Assembly: GCA_003560165.1 (NCBI GenBank)
Contig: PWJC01000041.1
Location: 1-44,126 of the forward strand
Reading direction: 5' to 3'
DNA from: Bacteroidales bacterium
Lineage (GTDB): Bacteria > Bacteroidota > Bacteroidia > Bacteroidales > UBA7960
DNA length: 44,126 nucleotides
Position 1 is the stretch's first letter; each line of letters starts with the position of its first letter. The notes below the pieces were generated by a model. It was not told where the DNA came from, did not search any database, and saw nothing but the letters and a program-made list of their open reading frames with translations. The translations under genes were made by a program, and so were the position numbers. Shown piece after piece: positions 11,167 through 44,126 of the stretch.

Positions 11167-11667
11167 CTATTCCCCTTCTCCTGTTTCGCGCATCGACAGG
11201 ATATCGCGGTCAAACAGGTAAAGGTTGTTGCTGCCCAGCAATGCGAGCTTGTCGATGACGCCCTGCACCGAAGCCTCCTCTTCCATTTGTTCGTCCACAA
11301 ACCATTGTATCCAGTTATGGGTGGCATAGTCTTTCTCATTCAGGCTAAGCGACACAATATCGTTGATGGCCGCAGTGACCATCTGTTCGTGCTCAAGCGA
11401 GGCATCAAACACTTCCCTGACTCCCGGAAAGTCTTTGGGCGGCTGGTCGATTTTCGGAACTTCGGCATGCCCGCCCCGTTCATTGATAAAAAGGATAAAC
11501 TTCATCATGTGTCCGCGTTCTTCATCCGACTGGGCATAGAACCAGGAAGCAATTCCGGCCATTCCCCGGGTTTCGGCCCATGAAGCCATCGACAGGTAGA
11601 GCTGGGATGCATAGGCCTCCTTCGACACCTGTTCATTCAGTATTTTCAACATTTTTTTTGAGAGCAT
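11167..11667 (-). CDS. Ferritin (non-heme)
   Basis: MLSKKMLKILNEQVSKEAYASQLYLSMASWAETRGMAGIASWFYAQSDEERGHMMKF is a classic FtnA-type sequence. Likely start at 11667 (ORF track gives 11694). Confidence 0.93.
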   Translation of the reverse strand: MLSKKMLKILNEQVSKEAYASQLYLSMASWAETRGMAGIASWFYAQSDEERGHMMKFILFINERGGHAEVPKIDQPPKDFPGVREVFDASLEHEQMVTAAINDIVSLSLNEKDYATHNWIQWFVDEQMEEEASVQGVIDKLALLGSNNLYLFDRDILSMRETGEGE

Positions 11668-11965: not shown

Positions 11966-12361
11966 TTGAGTAAAATATTCCACATATCAGAGGCCGCCAG
12001 CATCGCCATTCACAGCATGGCTATGATATCCAGAAGCAATACCTTGCTCAATACCAAGCAGGTAGCCGAAAAGACGGGTTTTTCCAAAAACCATACGGCA
12101 AAGATATTGCAGCAATTGGCAAAAAACGGGTTCCTTCGATCGACACGGGGACCCCGGGGCGGATTTGTATTGGGCAAAAAAGCGGAGGAGATCAGCCTGA
12201 TGGACATATACCGGATTATCGAAGGACAACCCGAGGAAACCGTCTGCCGGATGGATTGCGGCAACTGCCCTGTTGACACCTGCATTTTCGGTGGGCTCGA
12301 TGCCAGATTCAGCGGCGAATTCAAACAATACATGACGGAAAAAAACCTGGCAATGCTTTGA
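11966..12361 (+). CDS. Rrf2 family transcriptional regulator (Fe-S type)
   Basis: Winged-helix sequence LNTKQVAEKTGFSKNHTAKILQQLAKNGFLRSTRGPRGGF followed by a Cys cluster CRMDCGNCPVDTC. Probable TTG start at 11966 (LSKIFHISEAASIAIH), 3' of the predicted promoter. Confidence 0.82.
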   Translation: MSKIFHISEAASIAIHSMAMISRSNTLLNTKQVAEKTGFSKNHTAKILQQLAKNGFLRSTRGPRGGFVLGKKAEEISLMDIYRIIEGQPEETVCRMDCGNCPVDTCIFGGLDARFSGEFKQYMTEKNLAML

Positions 12362-12760
12362 GCAGGAAGACGGAAGACAGAGGACAGAAGACGGAAGGTA
12401 GTAAGTAGTAAGTAGCAGGTAGTAGGTAGGAAGAAGAAAGTTGAAAAGTTGAAAAGTTGAAGAGTTGAAGAGTTTAAGAGTTGAAGAGTTGAAGAGTTGA
12501 AGAGTTGAAGAGTTGAAGAGTTTAAGAGTTTAAGAGTTGAAGAGTTGAAGAGTTTAAGAGTTGAAGAGTTGAAGAGTTGAAGAGTTGAAGAGTTGAAGAG
12601 TTGAAGAGTTGAAGAGTTGAACGGTTTAATAGCTGAAAATTAAACTATTAAACTATTAAACCATTAAACTATTAAACCTGTTGGGATTTCCCCGGGTTCT
12701 AACTGTCGCATCGACTGCGAGAAAACGCGAAATGACCTTTCGTCATTTTGACTTTTTCAC
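12362..12760 (+). repeat. Composite intergenic repeat, copy 1 (E/A 7-mer arrays, B 8-mer array, C AT-rich 8-mer hairpin block, D head)
   Basis: GAAGACR-like 7-mers (12365-12397), GTAGTAA-like 7-mers (12398-12430), about 23 units of GTTGAAGA/GTTGAAAA/GTTTAAGA (12440-12622), GGTTTAATAGCTGAAAATTAAACT + ATTAAACY units (12623-12678), head CTGTTGGGATTTCCCCGGGTTCTAACTGTCGCATCGACTGCGAGAAAACGCGAAATGACCTTTCGTCAT. Confidence 0.95.
12730..12748. promoter_or_regulatory. Candidate operator: perfect inverted repeat upstream of ferredoxin-hcp
   Basis: AAATGAC-CTTTC-GTCATTT, 45 bp upstream of the ATG at 12793; regulator unknown. Confidence 0.4.
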
Positions 12761-12792
12761 ACATCATAACAAAATAACTAAGGAATAACTTC

Positions 12793-13725
12793 ATGAAACG
12801 GACTATAATAAAAATCGACGAAGACTTGTGCAATGGCTGCGGGCTGTGCATTGAGGGCTGCCACGAGGGCGCCCTGCAACTGATCGACGGGAAAGCCCGG
12901 ATGATCAGCGATCTGTATTGCGACGGCCTGGGGGCCTGCATCCCCGAATGCCCGGTATCGGCCATCACCCTCGAGGAACGCGAGGCCGAACCCTACAACG
13001 AGCAAAAGGTCATGGAGCGCATCGCCCCCAAAGGTGAGGCCACGGTGCTGGCCCACCTGAACCACCTCATCGATCACGATCAGCACGAATATGTCAGGCA
13101 GGGGATCCAGTACATCAAAGACCACGATCTGCCCATAGACCTTTCCAAATTAACCCCTCAAAAAACCGAAGTGAACATGAGCACCACAAAAGAACAGAAG
13201 CATACCGCGCAAGCTGCACAGCGCGGCGGACAGCCCGAAAGCCACCATCCCCTTGCAGGAGGCGGGGGCTGCCCGGGTTCACGGATGATGAACTTCGACC
13301 TTCCCAACGGTGGCGCAGCCGCCGCCCCCGCAGGCGAACAGCCTTCAGCCCTCAGGCAATGGCCGGTGCAGCTCCATCTGGTGAATCCCGAAGCGCCATA
13401 TTTCAGGGAAGCCGATGTGTTGCTGGCTGCCGATTGCGTGGCCTTTTCCATGGGCAACTTCCACAGCAGATTCCTAAAAGGCAAAGGGCTTGCCATTGCC
13501 TGCCCGAAGCTCGATGCGGGCAAGGAAGCCTATATCGAAAAGCTCACCGCCATGATCGACCACTCCAGGATCAACACCCTGACCGTAATGATCATGCAGG
13601 TGCCCTGCTGCTCGGGTCTGAAGCAAATCGCCGTCGCGGCGGCGCAGGCTGCCGGCCGCAAGGTACCCGTAAAGGCGATCACTGTTGGCCTGCAGGGAGA
13701 GATCATCAACGAAGAATGGATATAA
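12793..13725 (+). CDS. 4Fe-4S ferredoxin-domain protein, Hcp-associated
   Basis: N-terminal two-cluster ferredoxin motif (CNGCGLCIEGCHEGALQ ... CDGLGACIPECPVSAI) and a long C-terminal domain with VPCCSGL; directly upstream of hcp. Confidence 0.88.
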   Translation: MKRTIIKIDEDLCNGCGLCIEGCHEGALQLIDGKARMISDLYCDGLGACIPECPVSAITLEEREAEPYNEQKVMERIAPKGEATVLAHLNHLIDHDQHEYVRQGIQYIKDHDLPIDLSKLTPQKTEVNMSTTKEQKHTAQAAQRGGQPESHHPLAGGGGCPGSRMMNFDLPNGGAAAAPAGEQPSALRQWPVQLHLVNPEAPYFREADVLLAADCVAFSMGNFHSRFLKGKGLAIACPKLDAGKEAYIEKLTAMIDHSRINTLTVMIMQVPCCSGLKQIAVAAAQAAGRKVPVKAITVGLQGEIINEEWI

Positions 13726-16184: not shown

Positions 16185-16230
16185 TGTGGGATGGATTTGA
16201 ATGGGTTACTAATTATTATAATTGGGTATT

Positions 16231-16420
16231 TTGAGATGTCGAAAGGTCGTTTTATCCTTCCCGCAGGCAGTGCAACAGTCAAAACATCCTGCAAACCCTG
16301 CGAAGTTAAAAAGCTTAAGAGCTTAAGGGTTTAATTATCAGCTCTTAACCTTTTCTGCTTTTCAACTTTTCAACATTTCAACTCATCACTCATCACTCAT
16401 CACAATTCTGACTTCCGTCG
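16231..16420 (-). repeat. Composite intergenic repeat, copy 3 (short, diverged)
   Basis: On minus strand: GACGGAAGTC, 3x GTGATGA 7-mer, four 8-mer units (GTTGAAAT, GTTGAAAA, GTTGAAAA, GCAGAAAA), TTAAGAGCTGATAATTAAACCCTTAAGCTCTTAA hairpin block, head GACTGTTGCACTGCCTGCGGGAAGGATAAAACGACCTTTCGACAT. Confidence 0.85.
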
Positions 16421-36440: not shown

Positions 36441-37001
36441 ATGGAAGAGAAGACAGAAAAACCCGATTTGAGCCATATCCTCACCATCCCGGGCAAAAAA
36501 GGCCTCTACAAAGTGGTTTCCCAAACCCGCAACGGCCTCATTGTCGAGTCGCTTGAAGACGGCCGGAAAATGCCCGTATTCACCACCGAGCGTTCCAGTT
36601 CGCTGGGCGACATCAGCATCTTTTCGACCGAAGGGGAAATTCCTCTGAAAGAAGTGTTCTGGAAGATCCATGAGGCCACTTCGGGGCAACCCGGCATCGA
36701 CCCCGCCACCGCCTCCCGGGAGCAGCTGAAGTCAAAATTCGAAGAGATTCTCCCCTCTTACGATAAAGACAGGGTGTATGTTTCCGACATTAAAAAGGTG
36801 TTCAGCTGGTACAATCTGTTGCTCGAAAAAGGCCTGATCAGCAAGCCCGAAAAAGTAGAAGAGGAAACAGAAGAGGAAAAAGAAGAATCCGGCAAGGGAA
36901 AAGGACAAGCCGAAAGCCCGTCTGCCGGGGCCGGGACCTCAGCAAAAACAGGGCAGCAACACAAAAAAGTGCAGCCAGGCAAAGGCAAACCCAAATCCTG
37001 A
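36441..37001 (+). CDS. DUF5606 domain-containing protein
   Basis: DLSHILTIPGKKGLYKVVSQTRNGLIVESLEDGRKMPVFTTERSSSLGDISIFSTEGEIPLKEVF matches the Bacteroidetes DUF5606 family as I recall it. Confidence 0.8.
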   Translation: MEEKTEKPDLSHILTIPGKKGLYKVVSQTRNGLIVESLEDGRKMPVFTTERSSSLGDISIFSTEGEIPLKEVFWKIHEATSGQPGIDPATASREQLKSKFEEILPSYDKDRVYVSDIKKVFSWYNLLLEKGLISKPEKVEEETEEEKEESGKGKGQAESPSAGAGTSAKTGQQHKKVQPGKGKPKS

Positions 37002-42233: not shown

Positions 42234-43715
42234 TTAATCAAGCCCGATACCGTAATATCCACGCCTGCCATCGGGATAGACACCTTCCAGCAGCACCCCT
42301 CCGCTTTGTCCGGCCAGGATCTGTTCGATGTCGCGGGGTGAATGCACTTGCTGACCGCCAACATGGGTGATGACAAACCCGCGCCTGACGCCTGCCGAAC
42401 TCAGGGCACCACGGCTGACGGAGACAACCCTCACCCCGTGGGTGATATTCAGCCTCTCCAGTTCCTCTTCGGTCAGGCTTTCAAAACGGGCTCCCAGGAT
42501 TTCGGTCACGTGGGTCCGCCCGGGGCTTACACTGCCCACTTCTCCATAAATATTCTTCAACACGGCCGTTGTTTCCTTTCTCTCCCCATTGCGGTAATAG
42601 CTGATCTCTATCTCGTCGCCCGGACGTTTGCGGCCAACGGTCTCAATCAGTTCGGCCGGGTTCCTGATGGTTGCCTGATCGATGCCGGTGATCACATCGC
42701 CGGATATCAGACCGGCTTCGGCAGCGGCGCTGTTCTCATGCACCCTTTCGACAAAGGCTCCCCGGTTAACTCCCATGCCCTTTTCTTCGGCCCGCCGCCC
42801 GGTCATCTCGGTTATTTCGACGCCCAGAAGGCCCCGCTGCACTTCTCCGAATTCCAGCAGGTCTTCCATGACCTTTTGGGCAATATTCGAAGGGACTGCG
42901 AAGGAGTAGCCCGCAAAAGTGCCTGTGGTGGAGGCAATGGCCGTGTTGATCCCCACCAGCTCACCGTGGGTGTTCACCAGGGCACCGCCGCTGTTCCCAC
43001 GGTTTACGGCCGCGTCGGTCTGTATAAAGGATTCGATGGCCATGTCCTCGGTCAGTATATTGATATTCCGGCCCTTGGCACTGACAATGCCTGCCGTGAC
43101 CGTCGAAGCAAGGTTGAAGGGATTGCCAACGGCAAGGACCCATTCACCCACCAGCAGGGCATCTGAGTCGCCAAATTCGATATAGGGGAGCCCTTCTTCC
43201 CTGATACGCAACAGGGCAAGATCGGTGGTGGGATCATTGCCCACGACCTCGGCTTCATAGGTGCGGTTGTCGTTCAGGGTCACCTCAATCAGGCTGGCAT
43301 TGGCCACCACATGATGGTTGGTGATGATGTAGCCGTCGTGGCTGACAATCACCCCGCTGCCTGTGCCGACAGCCGGCCGTTGCGGGGCAGGGGTGCGGCC
43401 GCGGGGCCCGAAAAAGAAATCAAAGAGATCGCGTTCGCCGAAAATATCCTGAGGCGGACGACCCAGGGCTTTGAATTCACTGCGAATATGCACCACCGTA
43501 TTCACCGTCATCTCAGCCACCACAGTAAAATCAGGCAAAGTCGCAGGCAATGATTTCAGGTGTCCGACCAGGGAGGCGGGTACAGCTTCGGACCGGTGGG
43601 GTATGGTTACCGATACCCCGCGATCAACATCTTGTGTAAACAGGAAATGGTTCATCCCCACAGTGACCATTCCTCCCAAAACGGCAGCCAGGAACAAATG
43701 CAGAAATTTCTTCAT
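42234..43715 (-). CDS. HtrA/DegP-type periplasmic serine protease with two PDZ domains
   Basis: [59 protein letters not shown] motifs. Confidence 0.96.
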
Positions 43716-43888
43716 AACAAGGGTCGTTTTTTTAAAAAAACAATAGAATACGGGTAATTGTTGTAAACTACAAAAAAAAACACGTCAATTTGTCATCCGT
43801 CTAAATAACCTATTTTTCTGATCAATAAGTATGCCCTGCTCCATAGAAAAGTCTTAATAAAATTTAAAAATGGACAAAAGGTATACAA

Positions 43889-44126
43889 TGTATGAAATGT
43901 TCATTCGCGTCTTCTCGCAGGTAGTGCGACATTTACAACCCGGAGAAATCCCAACAGGTTTAATAGTTTAATGGTTTAATAGTTTAATTTTCAGCTATTA
44001 AACCGTTCAACTTTTCAACTTTTCAACTTTTCAACTTTTCAACTTTTCAACTTTTCAACTTTTCAACTTTTCAACTTTTCAACTTTCTTCTTCCTACCTA
44101 CTACCTACTACCTACTACTTACTATC
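43889..44126 (-). repeat. Composite intergenic repeat, copy 2 (truncated by window end)
   Basis: On minus strand: GTAGTAR 7-mers, GGAAGAAGAAAG junction, 10 units of GTTGAAAA (44005-44083), GGTTTAATAGCTGAAAATTAAACT + ATTAAACY units (43957-44004), head CTGTTGGGATTTCTCCGGGTTGTAAATGTCGCACTACCTGCGAGAAGACGCGAA. Confidence 0.95.

Follow-up and report, generated by a model that had tools for sequence, protein, structure and literature searches.

Inward-facing composites of seven- and eight-nucleotide tandem repeats in the intergenic DNA of a Bacteroidales genome

What kind of element fills the gap between an Rrf2-family gene and a 4Fe-4S protein gene in this Bacteroidales genome, and how could several unlike short tandem repeats have come to stand there in a definite order? 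The window analyzed here is the entire 44,126-nucleotide contig C173 of the MAG G000, which comprises 2.7 Mb in 184 contigs. A sequence-only reading of the window had described three intergenic loci sharing one order of modules (E, A, B, C, and D), and inspection of the sequence together with TRF and nhmmer recovered all three, in that order and on the strands given for them. In copy 1, on the plus strand, module E is a heptamer array of about 4.7 GGAAGAC units (12365-12397; TRF and sequence) that begins 3 bp past the stop codon (TGA, 12359-12361) closing the Rrf2-family gene (PF02082). It is followed by module A, a GTAGTAR heptamer array (12398-12431; TRF and sequence), by the A/B linker GGAAGAAGAAA (12432-12441; sequence), and by module B, an octamer array of about 23 GTTGAARA/GTTTAAGA units (12439-12627; TRF). 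The turn and module C, which start with GGTTTAATAGCTGAAAATTAAACTATTAAAC (12628-12677 by sequence; TRF 12639-12677), lead into the 71-bp head, module D (12678-12748; nhmmer E 4.7e-19), and a pyrimidine-rich tail remnant of TTTTGAC/TTTCGAC-like words (12749-12792; sequence) then extends to the 4Fe-4S protein gene (Fer4 domains), whose ATG is at 12793.

The other two loci lie on the minus strand. A divergent copy consists of an E remnant (GACGGAAGTCAGAATT; 16404-16419; sequence), a variant module A of 3.3 GTGATGA units (16381-16403; TRF), a module B of about 4 GTTGAAAA units (16350-16383; TRF), a turn with a degenerate module C (ATTAAACCCTTAAGCTCTTAAGC; 16306-16349; sequence), and module D at about 16230-16305 (nhmmer match 16234-16292, E 4.3e-10). 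The contig-end copy holds a module A array of GTAGTAGG (44094-44124; TRF), within which the contig stops at 44126, leaving the E side off the contig; inward of it lie a GTTGAAAA module B array of 12.4 units (43988-44086; TRF), module C (43958-43988; TRF), and module D (43888-43957; nhmmer E 2.3e-16), the last upstream of a Trypsin_2/PDZ (DegP-like) gene at 42234-43715 (Pfam). Its junctions, which had been called nearly identical to those of copy 1, are in fact identical to them. A search of the window with Rfam covariance models returned no match. Separately from the 7/8 arrays, and unrelated to them, repeats of period 12 and period 18 occur in a coding region at 36857-36983.

One part of the original description did not survive closer reading. 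Module C had been counted as a module in its own right, but it is mostly the reverse complement of a B-type unit (TATTAAAC for GTTTAATA) and forms the inner portion of the opposite arm; in copy 1 these inverted units pair as a hairpin at the turn with the GTTTAATA just before them. The turn itself (e.g., AATATCAAATACTT or GAAAATTAAAC) is AT-rich and almost self-complementary, and each element is in effect two half-elements joined head to head. With array orientation assigned by the purine-rich strand, changes of orientation within a G000 intergenic region ran from plus to minus in 33 cases and from minus to plus in none, so that these mixed regions read purine-rich first on both strands. The same inward direction was found for seven changes against one in the sister species G013 (the exception being purine-neutral), for two against none in other sampled genomes of the order, and for three against none at further Bacteroidota loci fetched by their heptamers. 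Part of this count is owed to the shared descent of copied blocks, though probably not all of it, to judge from the like direction in other species with unrelated words. Snap-back copying was rejected as the sole source of the inverted pairs, the innermost arrays of the two arms belonging to the same family in just 3 of the 33 mixed regions; 20 of the remainder set B opposite a related GTTTAA form.

The claim of three copies in 32 kb was right about the copies, which are real, but fell far short of their number, as the loci belong to a genome-wide set. The whole of copy 1 used as a query matched 47 places in G000 (217 first-look candidates, 40 of them scored), many of them at contig ends, and the large share of matches in that position indicates that the repeats break the assembly. 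Counts for G000 cover about 750 kb of its 2.7 Mb, on contigs partly picked for having a match and with gene starts taken from a simple ORF caller, and within this sample 92 intergenic regions carry arrays. The gene gaps of G000 hold several hundred tandem arrays, with units almost exclusively of 7 nt (GAAGACR, GAAGGTA, GTAGTAR, GTGATGA, and AGCCAAM) or 8 nt (GTTGAARA, GTTTAARA, GAACGATG, GTCGAAAA, and TATTAAAC). No G-tract of three or more occurs in GTTGAARA, GTAGTAR, GAAGACR, GTTTAARA, AGCCAAM, or GAACGATG, a single array region mixes several units, and module B runs from 2 to 37 units in sampled G000.

This restriction to two periods is strict. Across 34 sampled genomes of the order, TRF assigned a period of exactly 7 (71) or 8 (99) to 170 of 234 intergenic arrays and to none of about 100 coding arrays, and in 580 kb sampled from G000 it did so for 130 of 150 intergenic arrays and for no coding array, period-7/8 arrays making up 13% of the sampled intergenic bases. 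A lag spectrum computed without TRF agrees with these periods: in 78.7 kb of G000 intergenic DNA, exact-match runs of at least 14 bp amounted to 1931 bp at lag 7 and 3996 bp at lag 8, with 0 bp at each lag from 2 to 6 and 0-16 bp at lags 9-13. Three Markov shuffles of G000 sequence produced no period-7 or period-8 array which, together with the lag spectrum, shows that the arrays are not due to chance; and since any period is tolerable in intergenic DNA, the 7/8 preference is a property of the generating process.

The proposed single composite family with a conserved module order extends well past the three copies. Reading from the gene boundary inward in sampled G000, 7-mers lie outside and 8-mers inside in 53 transitions, with 6 against; A to B runs 25:0, H (GAACGA) to B 8:0, and B to AGCCAA 12:1. 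A finer ranking of modules scored 79 for and 7 against, and is descriptive, having been picked after the data were viewed. The A/B junction GGTAGGAAGAAGAAAGTT[GT]AA occurs 17 times in about 750 kb of G000, and most composites are therefore copies of one another rather than independent inventions. Two near-identical loci (L144 and L148) share linker, B, C, D, and tail, and differ in array copy number and in their left flanks, a pattern that bears the marks of recent copying of a whole composite. The further suggestion that the architecture is maintained, in the sense of selection, was not borne out, as the identical junctions and the L144/L148 pair point to whole-composite copying instead. The outer ends in sampled G000 are arrays of varying unit and length, half-elements and mosaics are frequent, and no fixed terminal repeats were seen at composite ends. 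At two loci a second dispersed repeat (CCTGCGTGAAAATCAAGGCCGG...GGCCTTCAGTAAGCAGGCC) abuts head D (L185, 1-110; L157, 15200-15427).

How far the head marks the family depends on the direction in which one asks. An nhmmer profile of D found 23 heads at E<1e-3 in sampled G000, and although they are mutually diverged, all 23 have an array no more than 60 bp away, nearly all directly after C, with ...TTAAAC running into CTGTTGGG. Heads thus never occur without arrays, whereas most of the 92 array regions, set against 23 heads, are without D. The head therefore does not define the family, and a majority of arrays lacking it is among the outcomes that the sequence-only reading had listed as counting against its proposal. 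Single D heads contain short palindromes, and a head of type II contains CACTGCC..GGCAGTG. A structured RNA was rejected as an explanation of head D: RNAalifold on 22 heads yielded no pair and no consensus structure, and the window has no Rfam match.

With respect to genes, the arrays hug the ends rather than the beginnings of reading frames. Measured from its outer end, an inward block is a median of 11 bp away from stop codons (n=49), in some cases overlapping the stop by up to 15 bp, and a median of 106 bp away from start codons (n=49), distances that differ clearly (Mann-Whitney p 2e-9). In sampled G000, arrays were found between 24 of 264 tandem, 11 of 82 divergent, and 2 of 46 convergent gene pairs. 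We read the proximity to stops and the clearance from starts as probable selection sparing the region upstream of starts, and not as terminator function.

The sequence-only reading had also supposed that the layout is kept while its units change, and the sister species fits this. Among 20 congeners, only G013 gave a substantial match, with two weak matches in G007. In at least 40 places G013 carries a composite of its own, of related layout, in which a GAACGATG array is followed by a TTGGCTG array, a TTAAACCA array, and a head that has no relation to D. Copy 1 splits an Rrf2-ferredoxin gene pair that 12 congeners retain with a spacer of about 24-200 bp, which in most of them is without an array; elsewhere this spacer holds (CCCAATAA)n in G012 and (CTTTCGAC/TTTTGACA)n in G005 and G006, and G007 has (AACCAGA)n ahead of the orthologous ferredoxin gene. 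Locus L071 of G007 and locus L082 of G012 thus carry unlike 7/8-mer arrays at an orthologous spacer, (AACCAGA)n against (CCCAATAA)n. Other orthologous gaps have an array in just one species or unlike units in both. G000 has 635 occurrences of (GTTGAARA)3, a motif that none of the 395 other Bacteroidota genomes contains. Of 396 Bacteroidota genomes, 14 contain (GAAGWCR)3, some of these genomes being complete or nearly complete, and GAAGWCR-type words recur in distant genera. By these comparisons the composites are recent and lineage-specific, with a vocabulary that changes between species.

No matches to the composite were found in viral contigs or in phage or plasmid records. A scan of genome contigs found it only in SKNJ01000330.1 (L067) and SKNJ01000247.1 (L068), from a record labeled Thioalkalivibrio; both encode Bacteroidota-like proteins (patatin-like and FtsX-like) and are probably misbinned, and L067 is 100% identical to G000:C25 over 1000 bases at the same coordinates and is therefore not independent evidence. 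These contigs open (L067, 1-330; L068, 1-370) with an apparent 5S rRNA 3' end and terminator, then (TTGGCTG)n and other arrays. Several further loci are recorded here for their own sake. In L228 (G051:C1:36121) a GAAGWCR array at about 1490-1530 apparently lies in frame inside a putative secreted T9SS-type protein, and in L243 (G152) a GAAGWCR heptamer at about 1496-1532 is followed by AGCCAAC units directly 3' of an apparent tRNA gene. Both sister species have several loci, L128 (6820-6870) and L157 (about 11180-11230) among them (G000:C172, C144, and C56), at which the dyad CATTCG-N14-CGAATG, or a variant close to it, precedes a -7-like box TATATTTG; the arrangement resembles the operator and promoter of a regulon.

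The proposal that these repeats match no described family holds for one part and not for another. Inward-facing intergenic heptamer arrays are known from Xanthomonas and Nostoc, where Rehm et al. (2015) described the repeats GGGAATC and GGGGA(C/T)T (PMC4692102), whereas in the papers searched we did not find the multi-unit composite form, the octamers, or the head described. The Xanthomonas GGGAATC arrays lie near the 5' neighboring ORF whatever its direction (28 nt vs 160 nt), overlap stop codons, and form 70-75 convergent plus/minus pairs in two xanthomonads (PMC4692102). The arrays studied here are likewise tandem intergenic heptamers, dispersed over the genome, close to stops, and found in inward pairs; the arrays of Rehm et al. 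were not linked to mobile elements. Intergenic units of about 7 nt, proximity to the 5' ORF, and convergent pairs all place our arrays with this class of intergenic heptamer SSRs; the single quadruplex-forming unit of the GGGAATC type is not found in them. The GGGAATC class has one G-rich unit of that kind, mostly in four copies and without octamers (PMC4692102), while here several 7- and 8-mer units without quadruplex G-tracts follow one another in a set order, accompanied by an AT-rich turn and by a dispersed head. In addition, GGGAATC arrays are underrepresented between divergent genes (PMC4692102), which is not so here (11/82). Rehm et al. discussed array location through quadruplex effects and cited a polymerase-footprint slippage idea for the excess of heptamers (PMC4692102). 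Quadruplexes are not the general cause, because the inward geometry also occurs with G-tract-free units, with 8-mers, and with words specific to the sister species.

A second precedent is formed by the cyanobacterial STRR heptamers and by the TAACTGA arrays that MacGregor (2015) reported from Beggiatoaceae, Cyanobacteria, and some Bacteroidetes, with further heptamers beside TAACTGA in Gramella and Aequorivita (PMC4679880). They share with our arrays the intergenic heptamers, the indels in 7-nt steps, and the array-less relatives with shorter spacers. In Beggiatoa, however, TAACTGA lies upstream of start codons, unlike the present arrays, which come after stop codons, and neither a composite order nor octamers nor a head, all present here, were reported for it (PMC4679880). 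In the literature searched, which left most subscription journals outside, we found no ordered multi-unit 7/8-nt composite with a head, no species-specific replacement of this kind, and no inward rule without G-tracts. The composites are an elaborate version of the little-understood bacterial intergenic heptamer repeats, not an ordinary transposon.

The arrays combine a strict period, block copying, length variation, inward polarity, proximity to stops, and a lineage-specific vocabulary. We propose, with roughly even confidence for and against, that they are non-autonomous and largely neutral intergenic composite microsatellites that grow by slippage with a 7-8 nt step and are spread by templated repair. 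An element would consist of two half-elements of 7- and 8-nt arrays facing each other across an AT-rich turn, and its history may be thought of in four steps. (i) Slipped-strand DNA synthesis with an inherent step of 7-8 nt would expand the units, as suggested by the strict period. (ii) Whole composites (E/A-B-C, with or without head D) have been copied in blocks to further intergenic sites, with later changes in array length; the pathway may be templated break repair, i.e., template switching or gene conversion, for which the repeats themselves would provide the seed. (iii) Both 3' ends at a break could be extended along the purine-rich strand and then joined via short self-complementary AT-rich words (TTTAAA, TTAA), so that the purine-rich arrays would point inward. 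(iv) Purifying selection would presumably leave arrays only at harmless sites, just after stops and away from the region upstream of start codons. Templated repair is favored on the strength of two domain searches: neither the Y1 transposase domain Y1_Tnp (PF01797), which 7 of the 21 genomes in the genus match, nor the reverse transcriptase domain RVT_1 (PF00078) had a match in G000 (95% complete) or G013, and the RAYT and reverse-transcriptase hypotheses were rejected on these grounds. Orthologous sites are too diverged between species to reveal target-site duplications. Slippage alone does not explain the inward polarity and the fixed module order, and pure neutral slippage does not predict the recurrence of GAAGWCR in distant genera.

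Streptococcus BOX elements are the closest modular analogue, and they lend some appeal to an alternative that we nonetheless consider rather unlikely, in which a transposase supplied in trans mobilizes a BOX-like or MITE-like parasite as one piece, and the arrays do no more than expand within it. The boxA-boxB(n)-boxC plan is the same kind of modular, interspersed repeat in fixed order with a tandem middle of variable copy number, is called parasitic, often supplies the stop codon of the upstream gene, and in another species, S. suis, carries the variant outer modules boxE/boxF (PMC3049150); the arrays here also overlap stops and may supply them, and the block copying with fixed junctions and a head would suit such an element. 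BOX modules, however, measure tens of nucleotides and have defined ends and a stem-loop (PMC3049150), whereas the composites are open 7-8 nt arrays around a head without a consensus fold; defined terminal modules are not found at both ends, the outer ends being arrays of variable length and unit, and half-elements and mosaics are many. The units and head of G013 are completely different, and with no Y1_Tnp in either G000 or G013 the composites also depart from REP/BIME-RAYT systems, which they resemble in their intergenic, interspersed, and palindromic layout. To our knowledge, tandem 7-8 nt arrays are not part of REP or BIME elements. A function in RNA or transcription, with the purine- then pyrimidine-rich spacer acting as a two-strand insulator, a Rho-type terminator, or a stabilizer of mRNA 3' ends, seems improbable to us. 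Arrays do begin directly past stop codons, all 33 mixed regions read purine-rich first on either strand, and the pyrimidine-rich arms contain C and almost no G (TCTTCAAC), as do Rho loading sites, which are C-containing and nearly G-free. Against this, convergent pairs, which need two-way termination, are not richer in arrays (2/46 vs 24/264 and 11/82), most orthologous congener spacers are without an array, and neither a consensus structure from the head alignment nor an Rfam match in the window was found. A two-way terminator in particular was rejected for want of any array excess between convergent genes (2/46).

The 7-8 nt step and the inward polarity would be the expected trace of 3'-end addition followed by fusion, and other species show a like direction with units unrelated to these, as does Xanthomonas with GGGAATC (PMC4692102). 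It is nevertheless a quite remote prospect that a dedicated activity, telomerase-like or a stuttering polymerase, adds 7-8 nt repeat units to broken 3' ends before head-to-head joining, given that RVT_1 is missing from G000 and G013 and that recurrent identical junctions mean that most arrays were copied, not newly written. Chi sites are species-specific, 5-8 nt long, purine-rich, and orientation-dependent. Inward arrays would face a central break, yet we think it very doubtful that the arrays are tandem orientation-dependent recognition sites, whether Chi-like recombination sites or uptake sequences: many unlike units are used side by side, and the unit words are not overrepresented singly in 643 kb of coding DNA, where, for example, GAAGACG was observed 96 times against 78 expected and GTTGAAGA 20 times against 16. 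The Chi/uptake-site hypothesis is disfavored by these expected frequencies. Finally, G000 is a MAG in which numerous contigs end in arrays, as an assembly or binning artifact might produce, but many arrays are internal with genes on either side and heptamer arrays like these are also present in genomes that are complete or nearly so, and we can give such an artifact almost no credence.

Beyond the preferred reading of slippage-grown, repair-copied microsatellites, a broader and frankly speculative idea, which we would not expect to hold, is that bacteria have a hitherto unrecognized DNA-end process that advances in steps of 7-8 nt: purine-strand repeats would be written or copied onto the two 3' ends of a break between genes, and these ends would then be fused head to head. 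Words specific to each species would build up in layers, and their inward geometry would be alike in Bacteroidota, in Xanthomonas, and in Nostoc. A 7/8 spectrum this sharp, in DNA where any period could be tolerated, is a clean fingerprint of a molecular ruler, and with arrays making up 13% of its sampled intergenic DNA, G000 is well suited to the search for that ruler. The arrays also terminate many MAG contigs, and in this way they shape what assemblies recover.
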